NCBI RefSeq assembly: GCF_963678865.1
Contig: NZ_OY787459.1
Span: 2,694,501 to 2,758,500 of the forward strand
Length of the DNA stretch: 64,000 nucleotides
Reading direction: 5' to 3'
DNA from: Maridesulfovibrio sp.
GTDB lineage: Bacteria; Desulfobacterota; Desulfovibrionia; Desulfovibrionales; Desulfovibrionaceae
In this document: positions 30,301 to 41,949 of the stretch, piece after piece
Numbering within the stretch: the first letter of the stretch is position 1
Layout: each line of letters begins with the position of its first letter
Notes under the pieces: model-generated
The model's database searches: none
What the model was told of the DNA's origin: nothing
The model's input: the letters and a program-made list of their open reading frames with translations, nothing else
Made by a program: the position numbers and the translations under genes

Positions 30301-32532
30301 ATGTATCCGATGCGTTTTTCCCTCAGAAGAAAGATAATTGCCATTGCCTGCGGAGCCGCAATTATTCCCATTGTGGTCATGTTCATCATTACTAATATAC
30401 TTGAAGACCATTTGCATGACTGCATGAAAGGTGAGGTTCGTACTCTTATTGAATCCCATGTTTCCCAGATGACGGCTGATCTTTATGAGGAGTGCCGTAC
30501 AGCTGATCAACTGCTTGTCGCTGAAACAGGCAGGGCAGCTATGGCTTTGCAATCCCTGATGGATGATGAAGGTAAAGTAAAAGTTCTGAAAAGCGTTTCG
30601 GATTGGCAGGTAGACAACCTTCGTTCAGCGGATAAAGGCGAAATCACGGTCCCTGTGATGACCATAGGAGGCAAAAGCCTGACATATGCCGACCGCAAAG
30701 GCAACCCGTTGCCCATGCTGGTGGAGGCAACCCGTATATCCGGTGCCTATTGCACTATTTTTCAGCGCCTCAATCCCGAAGGTGATATGCTGGTGGTGGA
30801 TACTACTGAAGGGGAAGGAGAAGACAACTGGGAATTGGGGGATATTTTTTATTCTCTGGGGGAAGACGGTCAGGTGGAATCGGCCATCGATGATGTGCTC
30901 GGCGGACAGACTGTGGAAAAATATGAAAGTCAGGACGACGGAACTCGTTATACTATCTATTTGCCCCTGCGAGATCAGGACGGCTATGTGGCCGGGATGA
31001 TAGCTGTGTATATGGATGGTAAAATTATTGAAGTCCTCAGGAAATCCATGCTCAAAACCTCAATCGGCAAGACCGGGTACATCTGGGTAATCGGCAGCAA
31101 AGAGGAAGACAGGGGGCGCTACATTGTATCCAATTCAGTCAAAAATGACGGAGCCTCTGTGGATGCAGTGGGGGGGCAAAAGGGTTTTGTGGAGGATGTG
31201 ATTTCGCAGGCTATTGAAGCAGGGGAAGGAAAACTCAGCAGCAAAACCTATGTCTGGAAGGTGGGTCAAGAAGATGAGGGCCGGGATAAACTTTCTGTAT
31301 ACACCTATTTCAAACCTTGGGGTTGGGTTATCGGGGCCGGAGTTTATCTGGATGAATATCAGGGAATTTCGAATCGTTTGACCGGGGTGCTGGATTACCT
31401 AGTGGAGTGGCTGCTGATAACCGGTCTGGTGCTGCTGGCAATTACTCTCGCTGTTTCCCTTTATGCCAGCGGCCTCATTGCCAATCCGGTCAGTCATATG
31501 GTTGAGCTGGTCAAGGTGATTGCCTCCGGTGACCTCCATAGAGCCAGAGAAACCATAGCCGTAGTGGATGAAAGCTGTCCCAGTGCCCGCAATGCCATCA
31601 AGCATGTCGGTAATCCGGAAAATCTCGATGAAACCGGTCAGCTCTACCTTGCAATCAAAGGCATGGTTGATACCCTTTATTCCCTGATCGGGCAGGTGCA
31701 GCGTTCCGGGATTCAGGTGACCACTTCTTCTACGGAAATTGCTGCTTCGGCCCGCCAGTTGGAGGTGACCGTTAACCAGCAGGCTGCGGCAACCACGCAG
31801 ATAAGTGCCACCAGTGCCGAGATTTCCGCCAACTCAGGCGAACTTGCCGGGGCCATGCACCACGTGAATGATGCTGCATCCAAAATGGACAACCTTGCCT
31901 CTGAGGGGCAGGACGGCCTGAAGACCATGATCAGGATAATGGATGACCTGAGCTCCGCTACGGCCACCATTACCGGCAAGCTGGATGAAATCAATGACCG
32001 GGCCAATGCCATTGAGGGCATCGTCAATACCATCACCAAGGTTGCGGACCGCACCAATCTGCTTTCCCTTAACGCGGCCATTGAAGCTGAGAAGGCCGGA
32101 AAGTTCGGACAGGGCTTTTCGGTTGTCGCTGCCGAAATCAGACGGCTTGCTGACCAGACTTCCGTAGCTGCCCTTGAAATTGAGGACATGATCAGCAACA
32201 TGCGCAGCTCCGTTGATTCCGGTGTGGATGAAATGGAGAGATTTGCCTCGGATGTCCGCTTCGGAGTGGACAAGGCAGGCAAGCTGGGCAAGAAACTGGA
32301 CGGTATTATGACCGGGGTCCGGGAGCTTAATCCAAGGATTGAACAGGTCAACGACGGTATGACCGCACAGGCCGAAGGTGCCGGGCAGATCAGTGAAGCT
32401 ATGGCTCAGCTTTCCGAGACTGCATCGGATACATCTGATGCCCTTTCCGAATTCAACCGGGCAACATCCCAGCTGAACGAGGCTGTGCAGGGATTACGCA
32501 GCGAAGTCTCCCGCTTCAAGGTGAGTGAATAA
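30301..32532 (+). CDS. Methyl-accepting chemotaxis protein with Cache sensor (WspA position)
   Basis: The 743-residue receptor has a membrane helix at about 12-33, a large periplasmic Cache-type region (about 40-355, with GYIWVIGS and the terminal WGWVIGAGVYLDEY typical of Cache), a second membrane helix at about 362-388, then a HAMP-like segment and the signalling domain. The hairpin tip reads ITKVADRTNLLSLNAAIEAE, the CheA/CheW-binding signature. It is the first gene of a seven-gene Wsp-ordered operon. WspA receptors in pseudomonads sense surface contact; this one has a Cache domain and so probably responds to a small molecule. The next gene starts two bases after its stop codon. Confidence 0.92.
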   Translation: MYPMRFSLRRKIIAIACGAAIIPIVVMFIITNILEDHLHDCMKGEVRTLIESHVSQMTADLYEECRTADQLLVAETGRAAMALQSLMDDEGKVKVLKSVSDWQVDNLRSADKGEITVPVMTIGGKSLTYADRKGNPLPMLVEATRISGAYCTIFQRLNPEGDMLVVDTTEGEGEDNWELGDIFYSLGEDGQVESAIDDVLGGQTVEKYESQDDGTRYTIYLPLRDQDGYVAGMIAVYMDGKIIEVLRKSMLKTSIGKTGYIWVIGSKEEDRGRYIVSNSVKNDGASVDAVGGQKGFVEDVISQAIEAGEGKLSSKTYVWKVGQEDEGRDKLSVYTYFKPWGWVIGAGVYLDEYQGISNRLTGVLDYLVEWLLITGLVLLAITLAVSLYASGLIANPVSHMVELVKVIASGDLHRARETIAVVDESCPSARNAIKHVGNPENLDETGQLYLAIKGMVDTLYSLIGQVQRSGIQVTTSSTEIAASARQLEVTVNQQAAATTQISATSAEISANSGELAGAMHHVNDAASKMDNLASEGQDGLKTMIRIMDDLSSATATITGKLDEINDRANAIEGIVNTITKVADRTNLLSLNAAIEAEKAGKFGQGFSVVAAEIRRLADQTSVAALEIEDMISNMRSSVDSGVDEMERFASDVRFGVDKAGKLGKKLDGIMTGVRELNPRIEQVNDGMTAQAEGAGQISEAMAQLSETASDTSDALSEFNRATSQLNEAVQGLRSEVSRFKVSE

Positions 32533-32534
32533 CC

Positions 32535-33029
32535 ATGCTGGTACTCACATTCAGAATAGGCGAATATGTTTACGGGCTGGAGGCCCGTTCCGTAGCCGAA
32601 GTGGTCCCTCCCGCGGTCTGCAAGGAGTTGCCCCGTTCTCCGGATTACGTAACAGGACTTTTCAATTACCGTGGTAAAGTGACCCCGGTAGTGGATTTAT
32701 CCATGCTGGCTATGGATATTCCTTGTGCTTCGCGTATGTCCACCCGCATTGTCATTCTGGATATAGCAGACCTTGATGGCAGAGAGGACCGGGAGGAGCA
32801 TTTTTTAGGTTTGCTGGCCGAGAATATTACCGCAACCTTGAAGGTAGCTGATTCTGATTTTGAGGATCCCGGATTGGAAATACCGGACGCTCCGTGGCTG
32901 GGGCGGGTGGCTCGGGTTAACGGATGTATGCTGCAGTTGCTCAAACCGCAGAAGCTGTTGACCGATGAGTTGCGGAGGGTTCTTTTCCCCAAGGAAGGAA
33001 AAGGTCTGCCGGATGCATTTCAGGAGTAA
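32535..33029 (+). CDS. CheW-like coupling protein (WspB position)
   Basis: The 164-residue protein is a single CheW domain. It opens MLVLTFRIGEYVYGLEARSV and contains LPRSPDYVTGLFNYRGKVTPVVDL, the conserved CheW turn with the arginine/glycine motif, and later ENITATLKVADSDF. It should bridge the receptor and the CheA at 35-38 kb. The gene is tightly packed: it begins two bases after the MCP stop codon, and its own TAA is followed directly by ATGATG of cheR. Confidence 0.9.
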   Translation: MLVLTFRIGEYVYGLEARSVAEVVPPAVCKELPRSPDYVTGLFNYRGKVTPVVDLSMLAMDIPCASRMSTRIVILDIADLDGREDREEHFLGLLAENITATLKVADSDFEDPGLEIPDAPWLGRVARVNGCMLQLLKPQKLLTDELRRVLFPKEGKGLPDAFQE

Positions 33030-34322
33030 ATGATGAATCTTGAACCGTTTCATAAGATTCTCAATCGGGCCATGGGGCTTGCACCGGAGTCGCTGGCCAG
33101 TTCCGGTATCAAGCTGGCCCTGAAAGCGCGTATGCGTGAGACCGGGTGTGACGAGTCGCATTATCTTGCCCTGCTGCGTTCAAATGATCTGGAGCTGGCC
33201 GAGCTGGTTGAGGAAATTGTAGTCCCGGAAACATGGTTTTTTAGGGATAGCAAGCCCTTTGATCTGCTTTTTGAAACAGCTCTGGGAAAAAAGGACAGGG
33301 AATTCAGTGTGCTCAGCGCTCCATGTTCCACCGGGGAAGAATCTTATTCCATTGCCATGACCCTTATGGGGGCAGGGCTTAAGGGATTCAAGGTGGACGG
33401 TGTGGATATAAGTGAACGTGCTCTGCACAAGGCCCGGGGCGGGGTTTATTCTGATAATTCTTTTCGAACCGATATTCCTTTCTATGCCGAGAGGTGGTTC
33501 CGTAAATGCGCGCAGGGGCGTCAATTGGCGGAGCCGGTCCGGGAGGCGGTCAGCTTTTATTCCGGTAATATTCTCGAAGGGTGTCTGCCTCCGGGAAGAT
33601 ACGATGTTATTTTTTGCCGTAATCTATTGATTTATCTGGATGACGATTCAAGAAAATGTCTGGTGTCGTTGTTGAATGATAAATTGAAGGATAACGGATT
33701 GCTTTTTGTGGGACATGCAGAAATTCTGCCCATTTTCAATGACTGGTTCACCCCGGTCAGGAAGCAGGGAACATTCGCCCTGCGCAAGGGCAAGCGCAAG
33801 GTAGCCACATTGCTCAAGCCTCCGGTCTGCCCCAGACAGGATTGCTCACAAAAATTTTCCGCTGTTCCAAAACCTCAGTCAGCGGCATACAGGCCTCTTA
33901 AAGCCGCATCTCCGCTCAAGCCCATGGTCATGCCCCGTAAAGAGCAGAGGAGTTCGGTTGCAAAGAACGGAAAGCAGACCCAGCCTACCGGACAACCGGA
34001 GCAGTCTGTTGCGTCTGTTGATGAAATAAAGAAACTGGCTGATCGGGGCATGACAGATGAAGCTTTAAGCATGTGCGACGGGCTGTTGCGTGAGGGCGGT
34101 CCGGACCCGGAGCTTTTTCATCTCTGCGGGCTGCTGCATGAGTCCGGGGGAAATATTTCTAAGGCTGAGGAATACTATGGCAAGGCCCTATATCTTGAGC
34201 CGGACTATATGGAATCGTTGGTGCATCTTGCCCTGTTGCTGGAAAACAGGGGGGATGTGCGCAAAGCAGAAATCATGCGCAACAGGGCCCGCCGGGCTGA
34301 AAAACGAAATGAGGCCGGATAA
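33030..34322 (+). CDS. CheR methyltransferase with C-terminal TPR (WspC-like)
   Basis: Two ATG codons stand in a row at 33030 and 33033; AGGAG favours either. The 430-residue protein has the CheR N-terminal helical part, a SAM-binding fold (VLSAPCSTGEESYSIAMTL, VDISERALHKARGGVYSD, YDVIFCRNLLIYLD) and, after a basic, proline-rich linker (about 255-320), one or two TPR units (GGNISKAEEYYGKALYLEPDYM). It methylates receptor glutamates. The TPR extension is the hallmark of WspC-type CheR. It overlaps the next gene by one base (TAATG). Confidence 0.92.
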   Translation: MMNLEPFHKILNRAMGLAPESLASSGIKLALKARMRETGCDESHYLALLRSNDLELAELVEEIVVPETWFFRDSKPFDLLFETALGKKDREFSVLSAPCSTGEESYSIAMTLMGAGLKGFKVDGVDISERALHKARGGVYSDNSFRTDIPFYAERWFRKCAQGRQLAEPVREAVSFYSGNILEGCLPPGRYDVIFCRNLLIYLDDDSRKCLVSLLNDKLKDNGLLFVGHAEILPIFNDWFTPVRKQGTFALRKGKRKVATLLKPPVCPRQDCSQKFSAVPKPQSAAYRPLKAASPLKPMVMPRKEQRSSVAKNGKQTQPTGQPEQSVASVDEIKKLADRGMTDEALSMCDGLLREGGPDPELFHLCGLLHESGGNISKAEEYYGKALYLEPDYMESLVHLALLLENRGDVRKAEIMRNRARRAEKRNEAG

Positions 34323-34978
34323 TGCTTAAATCCTGCTGGAATACAATCGGTTACGCCGGGGACAGGTCCTGTGCCGAACTCGAGAACTGGAGCCACTGCT
34401 ACTATTGCCCGCATTTTACCAGTGCCGGGTTGTCCCTGCTGGATCGCAAGCCTCCCGAAGGTTATCTGGATGAAAATACCAAGTCCGTGTCCATTGCCAA
34501 AGAAGAGGAAAAGGCAGAGACTTCCGGGGCGGTTGTGTTCAGGATTTCAAGGGAATGGTTGGCTCTTTCCTCCCATGTTTTTGTTTCGGTTCTGGAGAAG
34601 CGTACCGTGCGGCCTGTTCCGCATCGCAACAGCAGGATGTTTCGTGGCCTGACCAGTCTGCAGGGTCAGATCATTCCGGTTGTTTCCGTGCGCGATCTTC
34701 TGGGGCTTGAGGCTGAATACCTGACCGAGGAGGAAAAGGGGTTCCGGGTTTACAGCAGGTTCATCTGTGTTGATCGCGGTTTCGGACGCTGGATTTTTGC
34801 GGTGGATGAAGTCTTCGGTGTACATCATTATCATCCTGATGCGCTCATGGATGCCCCGGCCACGGTAGCCAAGGCCCCGGCGGCATATACCCGAGGCATG
34901 TTTGAAATAGATGGTAAAAGAATTTCATTGCTGGAAGATGAGCTTCTTTTTGAGGCCTTCAACCGTATCATCAAGTAA
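34322..34978 (+). CDS. WspD-like CheW coupling protein with N-terminal cysteine cluster
   Basis: This second CheW protein (218 residues) starts inside the cheR stop codon. Its first 30 residues carry a cysteine/histidine cluster (Cys5-Trp, Cys17, His25-Cys26, Cys29-Pro) like that of WspD proteins, followed by a linker and a CheW domain (about 65-215, with RMFRGLTSLQGQIIPVVSVRDLL). The cysteines could bind metal or sense redox, but this is unproven. Two different CheW proteins in one operon is the Wsp pattern. Confidence 0.88.
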   Translation: MLKSCWNTIGYAGDRSCAELENWSHCYYCPHFTSAGLSLLDRKPPEGYLDENTKSVSIAKEEEKAETSGAVVFRISREWLALSSHVFVSVLEKRTVRPVPHRNSRMFRGLTSLQGQIIPVVSVRDLLGLEAEYLTEEEKGFRVYSRFICVDRGFGRWIFAVDEVFGVHHYHPDALMDAPATVAKAPAAYTRGMFEIDGKRISLLEDELLFEAFNRIIK

Positions 34979-35019
34979 GGCGGATATTATGAGCAACAGC
35001 TGGACAGGGAGAAAGTAAG

Positions 35020-37890
35020 GTGACGCGAGATATGGCGGATCTTTCCATGCTGGAACTTTTTCGCATGGAGGCGGGCAACCATACCCGGGTGCTGGAAGAA
35101 GGTCTCCCCGGACTTGGTGAAGACGTCTCTTTGGAAAAGGTGCAGCCTCTTATCCATGCTACTCACGCCCTGAAAGGTGCGGGCAAGATTGTGGGGCTGG
35201 TTGAGGCGGTGAGTCTTTCCGAGTCGATAGAAGCTGTGCTGGACAATTGTTCCGGTTCAGGGCTTCTGCTCGACCAGCAGGGTATTGATGCCTTGTTGGA
35301 CGGTGTTCGTTTTCTGCATTCCCTCGGGGAAGTGGAAGTTGAGGGAATGGATGGCTGGCTGGAAGAACGGACTGAAGAACTGAAATCTCTGCTGGGGCGT
35401 TTAGGGGCAATACTTTCAGGAGATGTGTTTGCGGATAAGGAGCCTGAGTCTGTTAAGACGCCGGAGGTAGAATCTCTTGTAGAAACACAGGGCGTTTCCG
35501 AACAGCCCGAAAACGATATTTCAGCGCCGGAACCTGCTCCGGCAGCTCCGCCTAAAGAGGATATCCCTCTTGCCGATCTTTCCATGCTTGATCTTTTCCG
35601 CATGGAGGCCGAGAGCCATTCACTGGCCTTGAATGCCGGACTGCTGGAGCTGGAGAGGGATCAGTCCCCGGATAAGGTGGAGCCGCTTATGCGTGCGGCC
35701 CATTCTATGAAAGGAGCAGCCCGAATTGTAGGCCTGACTGATGCCGTGGCTCTGGCACATGCTATGGAAGACCTTTTGGTTTCCTGCCAGAAAGGAGAGA
35801 CTGTTCTTGATGGAGCGCAGATCGATATGCTCCTTGCGGCGACAGATATCTATAGTGACGTTTCCCGGCTTGAAACGGATGCCATTCAGGGCTTCCTGAG
35901 CGAGCGCAAACCGCTTATGGACCAGATGGAAAAGGCCTTGCGTGGAGACGCGGCTGCTGTGGTCGCCGTCTGTGCAGATGTCTGCCCCGGAGGAGTTCCG
36001 GCTTCAGCTATTGAAGCCGCAATGGAGCCTATTGAGAATCCTGATTCGGGGGTTGATTCTGAAGAGCAGCCTGATTCTGTGCAGGATGATTCAGTTCAAA
36101 GTGTCATAGCTGGAAAGGTTACGGCAGCGGAAGAGAGTTCTGCAATCCGTGCCCCCAAGGATTCAGTCGTCCGTGTTTCCGCCGGAAATTTGAACAGACT
36201 CATGGCTCTTGCCGGTGAAAGCCTTGTTGAATCCGGCAGACTGGGTGAGTTCGCTTCTTCCTTGCTGCGGATCAAGGCCGGACAGCGTGATTTGATGAAG
36301 ATTCTGGAGGAATCATGCGAACGGGTCAACCAGGGCGAAACAGCCGAAGATGTGGTTGATGAAATAAAGGATGCCCTGAATGATTGTCAGGTGCATCTTG
36401 TCAAGCATATCAATGAGTTCGACCTCTTTCGCAGGCGTAATGATAATGTTTCGGGCAGGCTTTACCATGAGGTTATAGCCAGCCGGATGCGTCCCTTCTC
36501 TGACGGTGGGCGCGGTTTTCCCCGTCTGGTTCGTGATCTGGCTCGTTCTTTGGGTAAGGAAGTGGATTTTGTTATCGAAGGTGAAACGACTTCTGTAGAC
36601 CGCGATATTCTGGAAAAACTGGAGGCTCCGCTAAACCACCTGATCAGGAACTCAGTTGATCACGGTATTGAAATGCCTGATGATCGAGTTGCCGCCGGAA
36701 AAAATTCTACCGGGACAGTCAAGCTTATTGCCGGGCATAGGGCCGGTATGCTTTTTATTGAAGTACGGGATGACGGTCAGGGGTTGGACCCGGAAAGAAT
36801 CAGGGCCAAGGTTGTGGAACGAAAGCTGGCCCCGGCGCGTATGGCTGAGGAAATGAGCCGTACGGAGTTGATGGAATTCCTTTTTCTGCCCGGTTTTTCC
36901 ACTGCCGGAAAAGTTACGGAAATTTCCGGTCGCGGGGTCGGACTGGATGTGGTCCATGCCATGGTGCAGGAAGTAGGCGGAACTGTGCGCGCAGAATCTG
37001 AGCCCGGTCAGGGCATGTCTTTTTCCATGCAGCTGCCGTTGACCCTTTCAGTTATCCGTACTTTGCTGGTGAAGATTGCGGGTCAGCCTTATGCCATTCC
37101 CTTGAGCAGGATCAGCCGCATTGCCTGTGTGCTTCCCGAGCAGCTGCTGCTGGCCGAAGACCGCCAGTATGTGTCTCTTGACGGGGCCAACGTGGGGCTT
37201 GTTCCCGCAGCCCAGATTCTGGGGATGACTTTTCCGTCCAAGGAGCAGGACGGGGTGAAAGTGGTGGTCATAAGTGACCGCATGAACCGCTACGGGCTGG
37301 TGGTGGATGATTTTCTCGGCGAGCAGGATCTTGTAGTCCGCCCGCTTGACCATCGGCTTGGCAACGTTCCCGATGTTAATTCAGTGGCCATGATGCCCGA
37401 CGGTTCTCCGGTGCTTATCCTTGATGCCGAGGATCTGGTGCGTTCCATCGACAACCTTCTTTCCGGGGGCAGACTGAGCAAGGTCGGGCTTGAGTCAGCA
37501 GAAATCGTTCCGGTGCAGAAGATTCTGGTGGTGGATGATTCCCTCACTGTGCGTGAGGTGGAGCGCAAGCTGCTGGCCAACAACGGCTATGATGTTGATA
37601 CGGCTGTGGATGGTCAGGATGGCTTTAATGCAGTTATTTCAGGTAATTATGACCTTGTAGTCACTGATGTGGACATGCCGCGCATGAACGGTCTGGAACT
37701 TACTCGTAAAATCAAGGATGACCCGGATCTGAAATCCATCCCGGTGATGATGGTTTCCTACAAGGACCGCAAGGAGGATAAGCTCCGCGGCCTTGAAGCC
37801 GGTGCTGATTATTATCTGACCAAGAGCAGTTTTCATGACGAGACCCTGCTTTCGGCGGTTGAAGACCTTATAGGCGGGGCCGGAAAATGA
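35020..37890 (+). CDS. CheA-type hybrid histidine kinase with two Hpt domains and receiver (WspE-like)
   Basis: The start is a GTG at 35020 with AGGGAG eight bases upstream. The 956-residue protein has two tandem Hpt domains, phosphoacceptors His49 (HALKGAG) and His228 (HSMKGAA), each opened by a near-identical helix (DLSMLELFRMEA / DLSMLDLFRMEA). Then come the dimerisation region, the ATPase (LIRNSVDHGIE, GRGVGLDVVHAMV), a CheW-like domain, and a C-terminal receiver with Asp883 in VTDVDMPRMNG. This is WspE architecture plus an extra Hpt. It should phosphorylate CheB and the PP2C response regulator. It overlaps cheB by four bases (ATGA). Confidence 0.93.
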   Translation: MTRDMADLSMLELFRMEAGNHTRVLEEGLPGLGEDVSLEKVQPLIHATHALKGAGKIVGLVEAVSLSESIEAVLDNCSGSGLLLDQQGIDALLDGVRFLHSLGEVEVEGMDGWLEERTEELKSLLGRLGAILSGDVFADKEPESVKTPEVESLVETQGVSEQPENDISAPEPAPAAPPKEDIPLADLSMLDLFRMEAESHSLALNAGLLELERDQSPDKVEPLMRAAHSMKGAARIVGLTDAVALAHAMEDLLVSCQKGETVLDGAQIDMLLAATDIYSDVSRLETDAIQGFLSERKPLMDQMEKALRGDAAAVVAVCADVCPGGVPASAIEAAMEPIENPDSGVDSEEQPDSVQDDSVQSVIAGKVTAAEESSAIRAPKDSVVRVSAGNLNRLMALAGESLVESGRLGEFASSLLRIKAGQRDLMKILEESCERVNQGETAEDVVDEIKDALNDCQVHLVKHINEFDLFRRRNDNVSGRLYHEVIASRMRPFSDGGRGFPRLVRDLARSLGKEVDFVIEGETTSVDRDILEKLEAPLNHLIRNSVDHGIEMPDDRVAAGKNSTGTVKLIAGHRAGMLFIEVRDDGQGLDPERIRAKVVERKLAPARMAEEMSRTELMEFLFLPGFSTAGKVTEISGRGVGLDVVHAMVQEVGGTVRAESEPGQGMSFSMQLPLTLSVIRTLLVKIAGQPYAIPLSRISRIACVLPEQLLLAEDRQYVSLDGANVGLVPAAQILGMTFPSKEQDGVKVVVISDRMNRYGLVVDDFLGEQDLVVRPLDHRLGNVPDVNSVAMMPDGSPVLILDAEDLVRSIDNLLSGGRLSKVGLESAEIVPVQKILVVDDSLTVREVERKLLANNGYDVDTAVDGQDGFNAVISGNYDLVVTDVDMPRMNGLELTRKIKDDPDLKSIPVMMVSYKDRKEDKLRGLEAGADYYLTKSSFHDETLLSAVEDLIGGAGK

Positions 37891-38903
37891 GAATAGGTAT
37901 TGTAAATGATCAGGCTGCATCAGTAGATGTGTTGAAGAAAGTAGTCACTGCAGCCGGGCACAAGGTACTCTGGATAGCCCATAACGGTGAAAGGGCAGTC
38001 GAAAAATGTTGTGCCCAGAAGCCTGATCTTGTGCTTATGGATCTGGTTATGCCCGTTTTGGACGGGGCCGGAGCCACGCAGATGATAATGAAGAAATGTC
38101 CCTGCCCGGTCCTGATTGTAACTGCCAGTATTGAGGCTAATTCAACCAAGATTTTCGAGGCCATGGGAGCAGGGGCGCTGGATGTGGTCACCACCCCGAG
38201 TACCTCTCCAAGTGGGGAAATCAATGGTGAGCGTGAGCTGCTTTCAAAAATATCCGTAATCGGTAAGCTGCAGGGGCACGGCATGGCCCGTGAACCCCTT
38301 AAGTCTGCTCCTAAAGCACGGCTGGTCCCGCCTTTACTCGCTATCGGTAGTTCCACCGGAGGACCGTCAGCACTGGCTGAATTGCTTGGAGCGTTGCCTG
38401 TTGATTTTCCGGCGGCCATCGCCATTGCTCAACATGTGGACGGTAATTTTTCAGAAAATCTGGCCCAGTGGCTGGACAGTCAGGTTAAGATAAAGGTGAA
38501 CCTTGCACGCAGCGGTGATCTTATGCAGCCCGGCGTAGCGGTGATTTCCCCCGGAGACCGGCATATGCGTTTGGCTCAGGGCGGTATGGTGGAGTTGACC
38601 CTCGGCCCCGGGGATAATCTTTATGTTCCCTCGGTGGATGTGCTTTTCGACAGCCTGTGTTGTGCGGGTTTCCCTTCCAATTCGGCAGCGGTATTGTTGA
38701 CCGGAATGGGCGCGGACGGAGCAAGGGGCATGCTTGGTCTCAGGAATGCAGGCTGGTTTACCGTGGCTCAGGATAAGGAATCCAGTGTGGTTTGGGGGAT
38801 GCCCGGCGCGGCAGTGAAAATGGGAGCTGCCCGAGAGGTCTGCGCTATTGGAAATATGGCCGGGTTGCTGGTAAGGCATTTTAAGAAACGTTTCAGGAGT
38901 TAG
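37887..38903 (+). CDS. CheB methylesterase response regulator (WspF-like)
   Basis: The 338-residue protein has a receiver (phosphoacceptor in LMDLVMPVLDG) and a CheB catalytic domain with Ser in GSSTGGPSAL, His in AQHVDGNF and Asp in TGMGADGARGM, so the triad is complete. It removes methyl groups from the receptors and resets the system. In Wsp systems loss of WspF leaves the pathway locked on. It starts within the CheA stop codon and ends one base before the PP2C regulator. Confidence 0.94.
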   Translation: MRIGIVNDQAASVDVLKKVVTAAGHKVLWIAHNGERAVEKCCAQKPDLVLMDLVMPVLDGAGATQMIMKKCPCPVLIVTASIEANSTKIFEAMGAGALDVVTTPSTSPSGEINGERELLSKISVIGKLQGHGMAREPLKSAPKARLVPPLLAIGSSTGGPSALAELLGALPVDFPAAIAIAQHVDGNFSENLAQWLDSQVKIKVNLARSGDLMQPGVAVISPGDRHMRLAQGGMVELTLGPGDNLYVPSVDVLFDSLCCAGFPSNSAAVLLTGMGADGARGMLGLRNAGWFTVAQDKESSVVWGMPGAAVKMGAAREVCAIGNMAGLLVRHFKKRFRS

Positions 38904-38904
38904 G

Positions 38905-40095
38905 ATGATGACTGAAGTCAAAGAGCAATTGCTCACCGAACATAAGATTAATGTTCTGCTGATAGATGATCAGCCTATGGTGGGCGAGGCCGTGCGGCGT
39001 ATGCTGGAAGGCGAGGGCGATATAGATTTCCATTTTGTGAGCGATCCGACCAAAGCCATCCCCACTGCTGAGGAGTTGCAGCCCACAGTTATCCTGCAGG
39101 ATCTCGTCATGCCGGATATCGACGGCATGACCATGGTCAAGTTTATGAGGGTCAATTCCAAGCTTAAGGATATCCCCCTGATTGTGCTTTCTACCAAGGA
39201 AGAAGCCACCACCAAGGCCGAAGCATTTGCCCTCGGGGCCAATGATTATCTGGTCAAGCTGCCGGACCGTATCGAACTGCTGGCCCGTATCCGTTATCAT
39301 TCCAAGGGTTACATCAACCTTTTGCAGAGGAACGAGGCCTACGAACAATTGCGGAAAAGCAGGGATGAAATGCGCAAGGAACTGGCGGTTGCCGCAGATT
39401 ACGTTACCTCCCTGCTGCCCGATCCGCTCAAGGAAGGGGATATTCAGGCTGACTGGCGGTTCATCCCTTCCACTTCCCTCGGAGGTGACTCCTTCGGTTA
39501 CCATTGGCTGGATGATGATCATTTTGCCATGTATCTTCTGGACGTGTGTGATCATGGGGTAGGTTCGGCTTTGCTTTCGGTTTCAGCAATGAATGTGCTC
39601 CGTTCACAGACTCTGCCGGATACTGATTTCCTCAAGCCGGATATGGTTCTTGAAGCCCTGAATGATTCTTTCCAGATGGACCAGCAGAACAACCTTTATT
39701 TTACCATGTGGTACGGGGTTTACCGCAAGTCTGACCGGACACTGACATTTTCCAGCGGCGGACATCCCCCGGCCTTGCTGATATCCGGCGGTGAAGCGCA
39801 GCTGTTGCGTACTCCGGGAATGATTGTGGGCGGCATGCCGGATATGACCTACACCAGCGATTGCGTTACCGTTGATCCGGGCGCCCGTTTTTTTCTCTAC
39901 AGTGATGGGGTTTATGAGCTGAAAAAGGTGTCTGACGGCAAGATGTGGGAGTTTGACGAGTTTTCCAAATTCATGAAAGGGGCCGGTGGCGAACTGGGTA
40001 AGCCCATTGACATGCTTATTGATTATACCCGTGAATTGCAGGGTGCTGAGCTTTATGAGGATGATTTTTCCATGGTGGAATTTGTTTTTGCGTAG
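38905..40095 (+). CDS. Response regulator: WspR-like receiver fused to PP2C/SpoIIE phosphatase
   Basis: The first 130 residues are a receiver of the WspR type. VLLIDDQPMVGEAVRRMLE, the phosphoacceptor Asp66 in VILQDLVMPDIDG, IVLSTKEEATTKAEAF and ANDYLVKLPDRIELLARIRYH all match my recall of WspR. A coiled-coil linker (about 145-165) follows, then a PP2C-like serine phosphatase (about 180-396) with the metal and core motifs GGDSFGY, DVCDHGVGSA, SSGGHPPALL, YSDGVYEL and a final DD (YEDDFSMV). There is no GGDEF domain. The likely output is dephosphorylation of a STAS-type anti-sigma antagonist encoded elsewhere. It is the last of the seven coupled genes. Confidence 0.93.
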   Translation: MMTEVKEQLLTEHKINVLLIDDQPMVGEAVRRMLEGEGDIDFHFVSDPTKAIPTAEELQPTVILQDLVMPDIDGMTMVKFMRVNSKLKDIPLIVLSTKEEATTKAEAFALGANDYLVKLPDRIELLARIRYHSKGYINLLQRNEAYEQLRKSRDEMRKELAVAADYVTSLLPDPLKEGDIQADWRFIPSTSLGGDSFGYHWLDDDHFAMYLLDVCDHGVGSALLSVSAMNVLRSQTLPDTDFLKPDMVLEALNDSFQMDQQNNLYFTMWYGVYRKSDRTLTFSSGGHPPALLISGGEAQLLRTPGMIVGGMPDMTYTSDCVTVDPGARFFLYSDGVYELKKVSDGKMWEFDEFSKFMKGAGGELGKPIDMLIDYTRELQGAELYEDDFSMVEFVFA

Positions 40096-40134: not shown

Positions 40135-41949
40135 ATGAGTATCCGCAAACAGTTCATAACCGGGTGTGTTGTTTTTTGCATTGCCCTGACCGTGGCCATA
40201 ATGTGGCTGGTTTCAGACTATGCCCGTGAGACCCTGATGGCCCAGTACCGTTCCAAGGCTGAAATAATGCTTCACACCATGAAGGCGGTGCGTAAGCATA
40301 CCGGGGCGGTGATCCGTCCAAAAGCCACGGAGGTGCTGCCGGAGAATATGTTTGTCCCCGAGTTGCAGTCCACATCCTTTACGGCCAACGGCGTGTTCAG
40401 TCGTATTCCCGACCAGTACAGGCATGAGCTGACTTTTAAAACCGCTTCCAGTAAACCGCGCAATTCCAAAAATCTTGCCACCAGCGATGAAGCCAGCATA
40501 ATTGAGGAATTGGATGCTATGGCTCAGGCCGGGAAAAAGCCTTTTATCGGTGAAATCCGAAATATCAACGGTATTGAGTCCTATATCGTCGCTGAAGGTG
40601 AATTCAACAAGCCCCCCTGTATGGTCTGCCATGGCGACCCCAAGGATGCTCCTCCATCCATGAAGAGCAGATATCCGGTCAAGGACGATATGGGCTATTA
40701 CCGCAAGCCGGGACGTATTGAGTGTGCCATGATCACGGCTGTTCCGCTTGCTGCGATGGACGCAGCAGCCAATCAGGCTATGGGCGCGGTTGTTTTTATG
40801 GGTTTTATTTTTATTGCGGTTACTCTCGGCTTTCTGCTTTTCGGGCTTAACCTTATTTTCAGACCGGTTTCCCAGATAACGAATATCGCCAAGCATGTTG
40901 CCGCCGGGGACCTGAACAGCGGGACCGTTGCCATCCGCAAGATGAAGAATCAGGCTGAAGGAAAATTCTTTGCAAGCCGGATAGTTCGTCCCGGTAATGA
41001 AATCGGTAATCTGGTAACATCTTTTGAGACCATGATTTCCGGTCTTTCTGCACTCATAGGAGAGGTCCGCACTTCCGGCGATAATGTTTCCGTGGCTGGA
41101 AACAAGATCCGGTCCACTGCTGAGCACATTGATGCCGCAGTAACCAGGCAGGCCGCTTCCACCAACGAAGTCACTGCCACCAGCAGGCTGATCAGCAAGA
41201 CCTCCAAAAATCTGGTGGAGGTTATGGAAGACGTTGCCGAGTCCGCGAGTGAGTCGGCACAGATGGCTGAGGCTCTGCAGGATAACATTGAACGTCGTGA
41301 ACAATCCCTTATAAGGCTGGTAAATTCCACGGACAATGTTTCATCCCGTCTGGGAGCTATCAACGAGAAAGCCAGCAGGATCAACCACATTGTTACCACC
41401 ATTGCCAGAATTGCCGACCAGACCAACCTGCTTTCACTCAATGCGGCTATTGAGGCGGAAAAGGCCGGGCAGTTCGGGCAGGGTTTTTCCGTGGTAGCCC
41501 GCGAAATGCGCAGGCTGGCCGACCAGACGGTGATTGCCGCAGAGGACATTGAACTTATGGTCCGGGACATGCAATCCGCGGTCAGCTCCGGTGTCATGGA
41601 GATGGAAGCCTTTAATCAGGAAGTGCGTTCCAGTGTTGATGAAGTGGAGCAGATGAGTTCTGATCTGGGGTTGATTATTGATCAGGTCCGGGTGCTCAAG
41701 CCAAGATTTATAGATGTTTCCCGTTCCATGGGAGACCAGTCCGACAGTGCGGAGCAGATCAGTGACGCCATGGGCGACCTGAGTGAATCCGCAGCCGGAA
41801 CTACTGAGTATCTGGAAGAATTCAACAGGACAGTGGCAAGTTTGAATTATACTGTACAGACTTTGACCGGGGCAGTGGACGGCTTTCAGGCAGTGGAAGA
41901 TGATTTCTTAATTTCCAAGGCTGAAAAAGACCCGGAATCCGACAATTAA
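40135..41949 (+). CDS. Methyl-accepting chemotaxis protein with heme-type Tll0287-like sensor
   Basis: The 604-residue receptor begins 39 bases after the PP2C regulator with GAGG upstream. A membrane helix (about 8-26) is followed by a periplasmic domain of about 170 residues containing the c-type heme motif CMVCH (Cys162, Cys165, His166) in the context PPCMVCHGDPKDAP, characteristic of the Tll0287-like (DUF3365) domain. Then come a second helix (about 216-242), HAMP and a signalling domain with the tip IARIADQTNLLSLNAAIEAE. Covalent heme attachment would make it a redox or gas sensor. It probably feeds the same CheA. Confidence 0.9.
   Translation: MSIRKQFITGCVVFCIALTVAIMWLVSDYARETLMAQYRSKAEIMLHTMKAVRKHTGAVIRPKATEVLPENMFVPELQSTSFTANGVFSRIPDQYRHELTFKTASSKPRNSKNLATSDEASIIEELDAMAQAGKKPFIGEIRNINGIESYIVAEGEFNKPPCMVCHGDPKDAPPSMKSRYPVKDDMGYYRKPGRIECAMITAVPLAAMDAAANQAMGAVVFMGFIFIAVTLGFLLFGLNLIFRPVSQITNIAKHVAAGDLNSGTVAIRKMKNQAEGKFFASRIVRPGNEIGNLVTSFETMISGLSALIGEVRTSGDNVSVAGNKIRSTAEHIDAAVTRQAASTNEVTATSRLISKTSKNLVEVMEDVAESASESAQMAEALQDNIERREQSLIRLVNSTDNVSSRLGAINEKASRINHIVTTIARIADQTNLLSLNAAIEAEKAGQFGQGFSVVAREMRRLADQTVIAAEDIELMVRDMQSAVSSGVMEMEAFNQEVRSSVDEVEQMSSDLGLIIDQVRVLKPRFIDVSRSMGDQSDSAEQISDAMGDLSESAAGTTEYLEEFNRTVASLNYTVQTLTGAVDGFQAVEDDFLISKAEKDPESDN

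Follow-up and report, generated by a model that had tools for sequence, protein, structure and literature searches.

The operon described here resembles the Wsp chemosensory system of Pseudomonas and Burkholderia, whose genes wspA–F are followed by the gene of an output regulator. According to Kessler et al. 2021 (PMC8552884), Wsp is exclusive to beta- and gammaproteobacteria, and each of the 794 clusters has wspR or wspH; the threshold was an identity of the proteins A–F of at least 30% to the Wsp proteins of P. fluorescens or B. cenocepacia. We analysed a window of 64,000 nucleotides (positions 2694501–2758500 of C1, the single contig of a 4.35-Mb genome of Maridesulfovibrio sp.). In this window, an operon of the Wsp order ends with a regulator in which a WspR-type receiver is joined to a PP2C/SpoIIE phosphatase. 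The coordinates below are window positions unless marked as genome positions. Regulators that join a receiver to PP2C are in themselves known (PMC5847659). Among chemosensory loci, the class F7 clusters (stage 1) hold a STAS gene and a serine phosphatase (PMC7184735), and the Shewanella Che1 locus contains the CrsR-CrsA partner switch acting on RpoS (PMC9855816). Unlike the operon in the window, these loci belong to another chemosensory class and have another gene order and a CheY, and a WspR-type receiver fusion is not described for them in the available text. WspA–F and WspR of planctomycetes are mentioned in PMC6461901, the available part of which does not discuss the output domain, and the available part of PMC6956133 contains nothing on this operon. 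In the openly licensed literature, we found no description of a WspR-type receiver joined to PP2C.

Seven tightly packed genes of the forward strand (30301–40095) follow the order wspA–F and end with the receiver-PP2C regulator. Neighbouring genes overlap by no more than 4 bases or are separated by no more than 41 bases. The open reading frames and Pfam domains agree with the gene order and coordinates of the original prediction, which had been made from the sequence alone. The WspA position is occupied by a methyl-accepting chemotaxis protein (MCP 1, 30301–32532) with a Cache_3-Cache_2 sensor; the order is conserved in relatives. It is followed by CheW (PF01584; WspB position, 32535–33029), by the methyltransferase CheR with C-terminal TPR-like repeats (WspC position, 33030–34322), in which the CheR domain is clear and the TPR matches are under the curated Pfam cut-off, and by a second CheW-like protein (PF01584; WspD position, 34322–34978). 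CheA in the WspE position (35020–37890), assigned by Pfam and by the CheA tree, contains two Hpt stretches, HATPase, CheW and a C-terminal receiver; multiple Hpt together with a receiver are also known in the ACF and Tfp CheAs (PMC10782961). CheB with a receiver (WspF position, 37887–38903) and the regulator (38905–40095) complete the set. Two CheW homologues and a CheA bearing a C-terminal receiver are what is expected of a Wsp cluster by its Pfam domains. The A–F gene order, the receiver and stalk of the final regulator and the kinship of CheA are shared with the Wsp of Pseudomonas and Burkholderia, whereas the PP2C output, the Cache and c-haem receptors and the range far beyond beta- and gammaproteobacteria are not. 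Since the output is SpoIIE/PP2C and not WspR or WspH, the latter being a hybrid histidine kinase, we filed the system as Wsp-like, separate from the Wsp R- and H-systems.

The gene of a second methyl-accepting chemotaxis protein (MCP 2, 40135–41949, forward strand) starts 39 bases past the end of the regulator gene. A terminator-like site was not found in this gap, and simple promoter and terminator scans were no better than chance (11 vs 11.0; 16 vs 12.6, standard deviation 4.0). MCP 2 has a Tll0287-like sensor with the c-haem motif CMVCH. The short distance and the haem motif suggest an operon with a redox or ligand-type input that probably has eight genes, MCP 2 included. Thus, the seven genes of the original prediction stand, and its end of the operon at 40095 apparently comes one gene early. 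A Tll0287-like c-haem receptor is present at the operon in the window and in 7 of the 112 loci scanned, with CxxCH kept in 8 of 8. Surface sensing, one of the inputs suggested earlier, gained no evidence; the input side consists of one Cache-type and one c-haem-type receptor.

The regulator consists of a WspR-type receiver (approximately residues 14–140), a helical stalk and a PP2C/SpoIIE phosphatase (approximately residues 180–395; 131 bits with Pfam). Using phmmer, we showed that residues 1–140 match the solved WspR chains 3bre and 3i5a with 168.1 and 163.5 bits, vs 58.0 bits for the third-best solved receiver and 41.5 bits for the receiver of P. aeruginosa RssB. The closeness to WspR stated in the original prediction is thus borne out. 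The match extends into the stalk helix, up to residue 158. The PP2C part is by sequence nearest to RssB (60–61 bits) and has the SpoIIE fold and metal-binding aspartates of PP2C/PPM phosphatases of the RsbU/SpoIIE type. Judged by these alignments, the regulator is a WspR front with an RssB-like back. RssB of P. aeruginosa (receiver-linker-PP2C; 3eq2/3f7a) is alike in domain order and overall fold, but its receiver is of a different kind, and its operon has the STAS gene rssC and not chemosensory genes (PMC12143880). Among 114 homologues, every protein shares D21, D22, D66, K118, G194, D195, D213, H217, G218 and D334 with the regulator; S96 is identical in 113, and D386 and D387 in 111, the other three having gaps. 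By the roles generally assigned to such residues, the phospho-acceptor and metal residues are intact, the latter as predicted; the metal aspartates D195, D213 and D334 are among those kept in all 114 proteins.

The structure was predicted for one chain with an alignment of 36 sequences (A2), i.e. the window protein and those of 35 of the 80 loci; L124 was left out because of a stop codon inside the stretch supplied. The 80 loci, here and throughout, are the best 80 among the matches listed in a broad scan of 84,980 species, one genome per species. In the predicted structure (mean predicted local distance difference test 92.3, predicted template modelling score 0.71), one unbroken helix, residues 122–169, spans from the receiver to the phosphatase. 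The best whole-protein match by Foldseek is RssB 3f7a (TM-score 0.58), and the WspR chains give 0.38–0.39. The PP2C domain of SiaA is a close fold match to the phosphatase of the regulator. Each of the 17 genomes of the genus has one WspR-class receiver at 281–337 bits, the next best being at no more than 63 bits; a second WspR-type receiver, GGDEF or other, was not found in any of the 17 genomes examined.

We determined the distribution of the regulator in 199 genomes of the order, using it as the query at E 1e-40 or better. Matches were found in 41 genomes: 22 full-length or nearly so, 2 with PP2C only, 15 with the receiver only and 2 with a generic receiver-PP2C protein (31%). The full-length matches belong to the same genus (14, own genome included) and to two other genera of the family (3 and 5). 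As 158 of the 199 genomes, including other genera of the same family, have no match, the system is patchy. The neighbourhoods of 10 of the other 21 full-length cases were examined. The comparison of operon order within Desulfovibrionales showed that the Wsp order is kept in nine of them (L068–L071, L073–L077); in the tenth, L072, the contig ends past CheA. In L073–L077, which belong to one genus, CheB matches essentially the methylesterase half alone, and the receiver domain appears to be lost. In another family of the order (L080–L085), WspR-type receivers stand alone, in frames of 161–214 amino acids without a chemosensory operon; a kinase-and-receiver frame of 1252–1278 amino acids adjoins the receiver in five of these loci, and the sixth is cut.

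In the 80 loci, the regulators are 49–87% identical to that in the window. They align over the whole protein or nearly all of it, two being truncated at a contig end, and their NCBI labels are those of approximately nine phyla. The complete A–F order lies directly upstream in 29 loci, of eight phyla by label. In 15 more loci, the end of that order is seen: 12 are cut by the contig, and L101, L108 and L162 show no further matches despite room. Ten loci have a complete A–F set elsewhere in the locus, and in two of these (L107, L117) that operon ends with its own GGDEF regulator. In the remaining 26, there is a partial set, a different chemosensory cluster or no such genes. Many of the 80 loci come from metagenome assemblies; records not titled as metagenome include Methylococcus capsulatus, Sulfidibacter corallicola, Zavarzinella formosa, Desulfoferrobacter suflitae and Fundidesulfovibrio agrisoli. 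Duplicates (L170, L198, L208, L209, L211) were dropped, as were repeat copies of cyclase and truncated receiver frames in L205, L206, L213, L221, L222 and L223. In 42 genomes of receiver-PP2C loci, there is one WspR-class receiver in 36 and two in 6. Thus, the operon is a real, conserved and widespread yet patchy Wsp variant with a phosphatase output. What is new compared to the 2021 survey is a Wsp-ordered operon ending with a WspR-type receiver and a phosphatase in eight phyla, and the regulator in approximately nine. Because the PP2C form carries the labels of approximately nine phyla, often with the same operon, the rewiring event proposed in the original prediction is not supported as a local one.

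The same receiver turned out to be joined to several outputs. To avoid bias, we used the receiver and stalk alone as the query (E 1e-30) and classified the domain that follows. In Desulfobacterota, 23 of 395 genomes gave 26 receivers, with PP2C in 16, GGDEF in 7 and a class III cyclase in 3, each of the latter beside a receiver-PP2C. In Planctomycetota (15 of 294 genomes), the 17 matches comprise 15 with PP2C, one with a histidine kinase and one unclassified. In Gammaproteobacteria, the class of G214 (65 of 369 genomes), 64 of the 69 matches have GGDEF, 3 PP2C and 2 a cyclase, one of which (L168) breaks off early, was classed by its first residues and shows the receiver alone by Pfam. The planctomycete protein with a kinase (L236, 1402–3105 of the locus) joins the WspR-type receiver to HisKA, HATPase and a second receiver. 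It is a hybrid histidine kinase, which we take to resemble Burkholderia WspH. Two outputs can also occur side by side. In L110, L124, L293 and L294, the Wsp operon ends with a receiver-class III cyclase followed by a receiver-PP2C; the two genes are adjacent in the last three loci and approximately 0.8 kb apart in L110. In L107 and L117, the Wsp operon ending with receiver-GGDEF is divergent beside the receiver-PP2C gene. The phosphatase, too, can be swapped: L078 (4628–6211 of the locus) and L079 (4691–6250), from another genus of the family, carry the same PP2C (51%) fused to a GAF domain in place of the receiver, and the junction falls within the stalk (Pfam was run on L078 alone).

Seven WspR-GGDEF operons of Desulfobacterota were examined. 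Six of them (L287–L292) carry the full set of seven genes in the Wsp order, and L286 is cut. The GGDEF form in Desulfobacterota is thus also outside the published Wsp range. These operons and the PP2C operons go against the exclusivity of Wsp to beta- and gammaproteobacteria, when judged without the identity threshold of Kessler et al. against their reference strains. When the window proteins were compared with six gammaproteobacterial GGDEF-type operons (L280–L285, not the strains of Kessler et al.), the tblastn segments were 26–55% identical, with some proteins below 30%.

The length of the stalk was counted between fixed anchors on both sides, by alignment in the GGDEF forms, and the short L279 was excluded. 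Among the 114 PP2C forms, stalks of 35 (15 proteins), 42 (98) and 56 (1) residues occur; the 71 GGDEF forms have 29 (1), 36 (3), 43 (55) or 50 (12) residues, and of the 7 distinct cyclase forms six have 66 and one has 73. Within each output kind, all differences in the 192 proteins measured are multiples of seven, and on a quick PP2C tree the PP2C stalk changed its length 8 times. Such heptad-quantised lengths point to a coiled coil driving swappable outputs. We consider this strong evidence that the output would be controlled through a coiled coil in which the register matters. In phosphatases of the RsbU/RsbP type, a sensor drives PP2C via a helical linker, and it has been proposed that coiled-coil linkers allow sensors to be exchanged between phosphatases, cyclases and kinases (PMC12143880). 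Here, unlike in those phosphatases, one receiver family has exchanged outputs, sometimes in one operon, and the linkers are quantised by heptads. The recent RsbU work (PMC12143880) raised the question of how one input domain drives unrelated enzymes. The same receiver with four output kinds (stalks are heptad-quantised in the three measured), sometimes two per operon, is a natural experiment on this question.

We also assessed by trees the kinship of the parts and which output is older. WspR-class receivers form one group vs three ordinary receivers (support 100/99). The window CheA groups with the CheAs of GGDEF-type Wsp operons, apart from four further CheA-like kinases encoded in the genome (99/98), in a tree with long outgroup branches and a warning from the tool. 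The CheAs of GGDEF-type operons of Gammaproteobacteria and Desulfobacterota make up one clade (11 rows, 100/98; 14 rows in another tree), and those of cyclase-plus-PP2C operons a separate one (2 rows, 100/100; 4 rows, 100 in another tree). Near-copies by identity had been removed from the balanced receiver tree and the CheA tree, as had L103 from the latter and L240 (weak, 110 bits) and L279 (short) from the former. In the balanced receiver set, holding all non-GGDEF receivers together gave a likelihood 8.1 log units above that of the free search (p 0.619), and the bootstrap was unsettled. One clade of GGDEF receivers was not rejected (p 0.313), nor was one PP2C clade in the CheA tree (p 0.242). 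The trees, with their long outgroup branches, reject neither arrangement, PP2C or GGDEF being the older output, and are silent on the direction of the change that the original prediction had called rewiring. From the first tree, in which GGDEF forms are nested in PP2C forms, PP2C was taken as ancestral; this was withdrawn to a possibility, the loci having been fetched mostly by PP2C similarity.

What does the phosphatase act on? We find it probable that the Wsp-class array has as its output a serine phosphatase that dephosphorylates a STAS protein encoded elsewhere and thereby operates a partner switch. In this scheme, the receptors (the Cache MCP and probably the c-haem MCP) would control CheA via both CheW proteins, and CheR and CheB would adapt the receptors. 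CheA would phosphorylate D66 of the WspR-type receiver, altering the packing of two receivers in a putative dimer. This change would travel through the continuous helical, probably coiled-coil stalk (helix 122–169) to the PP2C domains, which, once activated, would dephosphorylate a serine on the STAS protein. STAS would then switch its partner, freeing the end target from a HATPase anti-sigma factor/kinase. In the sequence itself we see the operon order, the receiver kinship, the intact active sites, the heptad stalk, the lack of a second WspR-type receiver in the genus genomes examined, and STAS and HATPase genes. The genome has 12 STAS and 18 HATPase_c_2 matches (6 above the cut-off), and it lacks a GGDEF protein with a WspR-type receiver that could be the true partner. 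Neither of the outcomes named as refuting the original prediction was seen. Of the HATPase_c_2 matches, the three best adjoin STAS genes at genome positions 1458163, 3073822 and 759795. Thus, the partners called for by the original prediction exist in the genome, and we infer the switch itself, STAS lying beside the regulator in some other species. Our best guess for the partner is the HATPase-STAS pair at genome positions 1458163–1458956, with STAS at 1458163–1458459 and HATPase at 1458585–1458956, or the lone STAS at 3009775–3010074.

In 7 of the 80 loci (L090, L092, L093, L105, L107, L137, L165), the receiver-PP2C gene has a Pfam-confirmed STAS frame no more than 1.5 kb away; in 12 of the 80, the sequence ends less than 1 kb downstream. 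In L090, the regulator and STAS are separated by a HATPase_c_2 gene. In L107 and L137, STAS is downstream of the regulator on the same strand, within approximately 60 bases by the first ATG. PF01740 gave 291 matches in approximately 217 Mb of the 42 genomes, i.e. approximately one STAS per 0.74 Mb. The linkage in 7 of 80 loci vs approximately 0.6 expected (within 2 kb, 80 loci) is therefore about ten times chance. Among the matches listed, at least 6 of the 42 genomes (G202, G204, G213, G214, G228, G243) have STAS within 2 kb; the 42 are not a random draw, having been chosen from the 80 loci, mostly with long flanks, and they include nine of the eleven loci that already showed a STAS-like frame (L138 and L166 were left out). 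The linked STAS proteins in six of seven cases match best the own STAS L008 or L011 (L092 is 53% identical to L008, L090 50% to L011, and L093 is weak at 27%), and that of L107 matches best L015. The own STAS L008 and a HATPase_c_2 gene make up a unit of two genes. Another estimate of STAS clustering, 12 of 12 (binomial p 7e-7), was obtained with a hidden Markov model retrained on those very hits, and we preferred the Pfam counts for this reason. The linkage above chance supports partner switching and is not proof of it. In four loci of Planctomycetes (L133, L138, L164, L166), a Hpt-STAS-like fusion is divergent from receiver-PP2C, beside a different chemosensory gene set.

Several points weigh against a partner switch through STAS. 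By the genome STAS search, there is no STAS gene in the 64-kb window or beside the operon; the window lacks the STAS and HATPase partners that a partner-switching module would be expected to carry with its phosphatase. No Pfam-confirmed STAS is near the regulator in 73 of the 80 loci, which were searched with a home-made model and not each by Pfam, and where STAS is a neighbour its distance and strand vary case by case. The genome has six other SpoIIE-type phosphatases, to which any STAS could belong. The Hpt-STAS-like fusions near L133, L138, L164 and L166 show no evident serine in the usual position, and the single fusion run against Pfam is just under its STAS cut-off (22.0 vs 22.6). The structure model covers a single chain, and the dimer packing is putative.

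The phosphatase might also act on STAS with an end effect on cyclic-di-GMP, through a STAS-controlled diguanylate cyclase, so that the Wsp logic would be kept by a longer route. We consider this unlikely on the available analogy. SiaABCD connects PP2C, STAS and a cyclase (PMC9239204), and SiaA is the close fold match mentioned above. As STAS switches can feed diguanylate cyclases in this manner, the exclusion of cyclic-di-GMP in the original prediction goes too far. The missing STAS gene at the operon, and the lack of a linked one found in most homologous loci, would also fit a PP2C substrate other than STAS, for example a protein kinase substrate, a receptor or a Che protein. With a domain of the SpoIIE/RsbU/RssB kind and the tenfold excess of STAS linkage, this is rather improbable. 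A regulator that mainly binds or titrates its partner, as E. coli RssB does with sigma-S, and needs little catalysis is very improbable: the nearest whole-protein fold, P. aeruginosa RssB, is reported to be an adaptor whose phosphatase domain is active, but D195, D213 and D334 are kept here in all homologues, unlike in the truncated E. coli RssB (PMC12143880).

Apart from the partner switch through STAS, we tentatively suggest, with slightly more doubt than confidence, a broader reading. Wsp may be one branch of an old multi-phylum array class and not an invention of beta- and gammaproteobacteria for cyclic-di-GMP. The WspR receiver and stalk would then serve as a universal plug to which PP2C, GGDEF, a class III cyclase or a histidine kinase can be attached as the output, via one coiled-coil mechanism that works in heptad register alone. 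Some Desulfobacterota arrays would drive a cyclase and a phosphatase at once, and PP2C may be the more ancient output. A phage CII-like gene (PF06892, 29236–29721) precedes the operon in the window, and two further genomes of the genus carry it upstream as well (98% and 87% identity).

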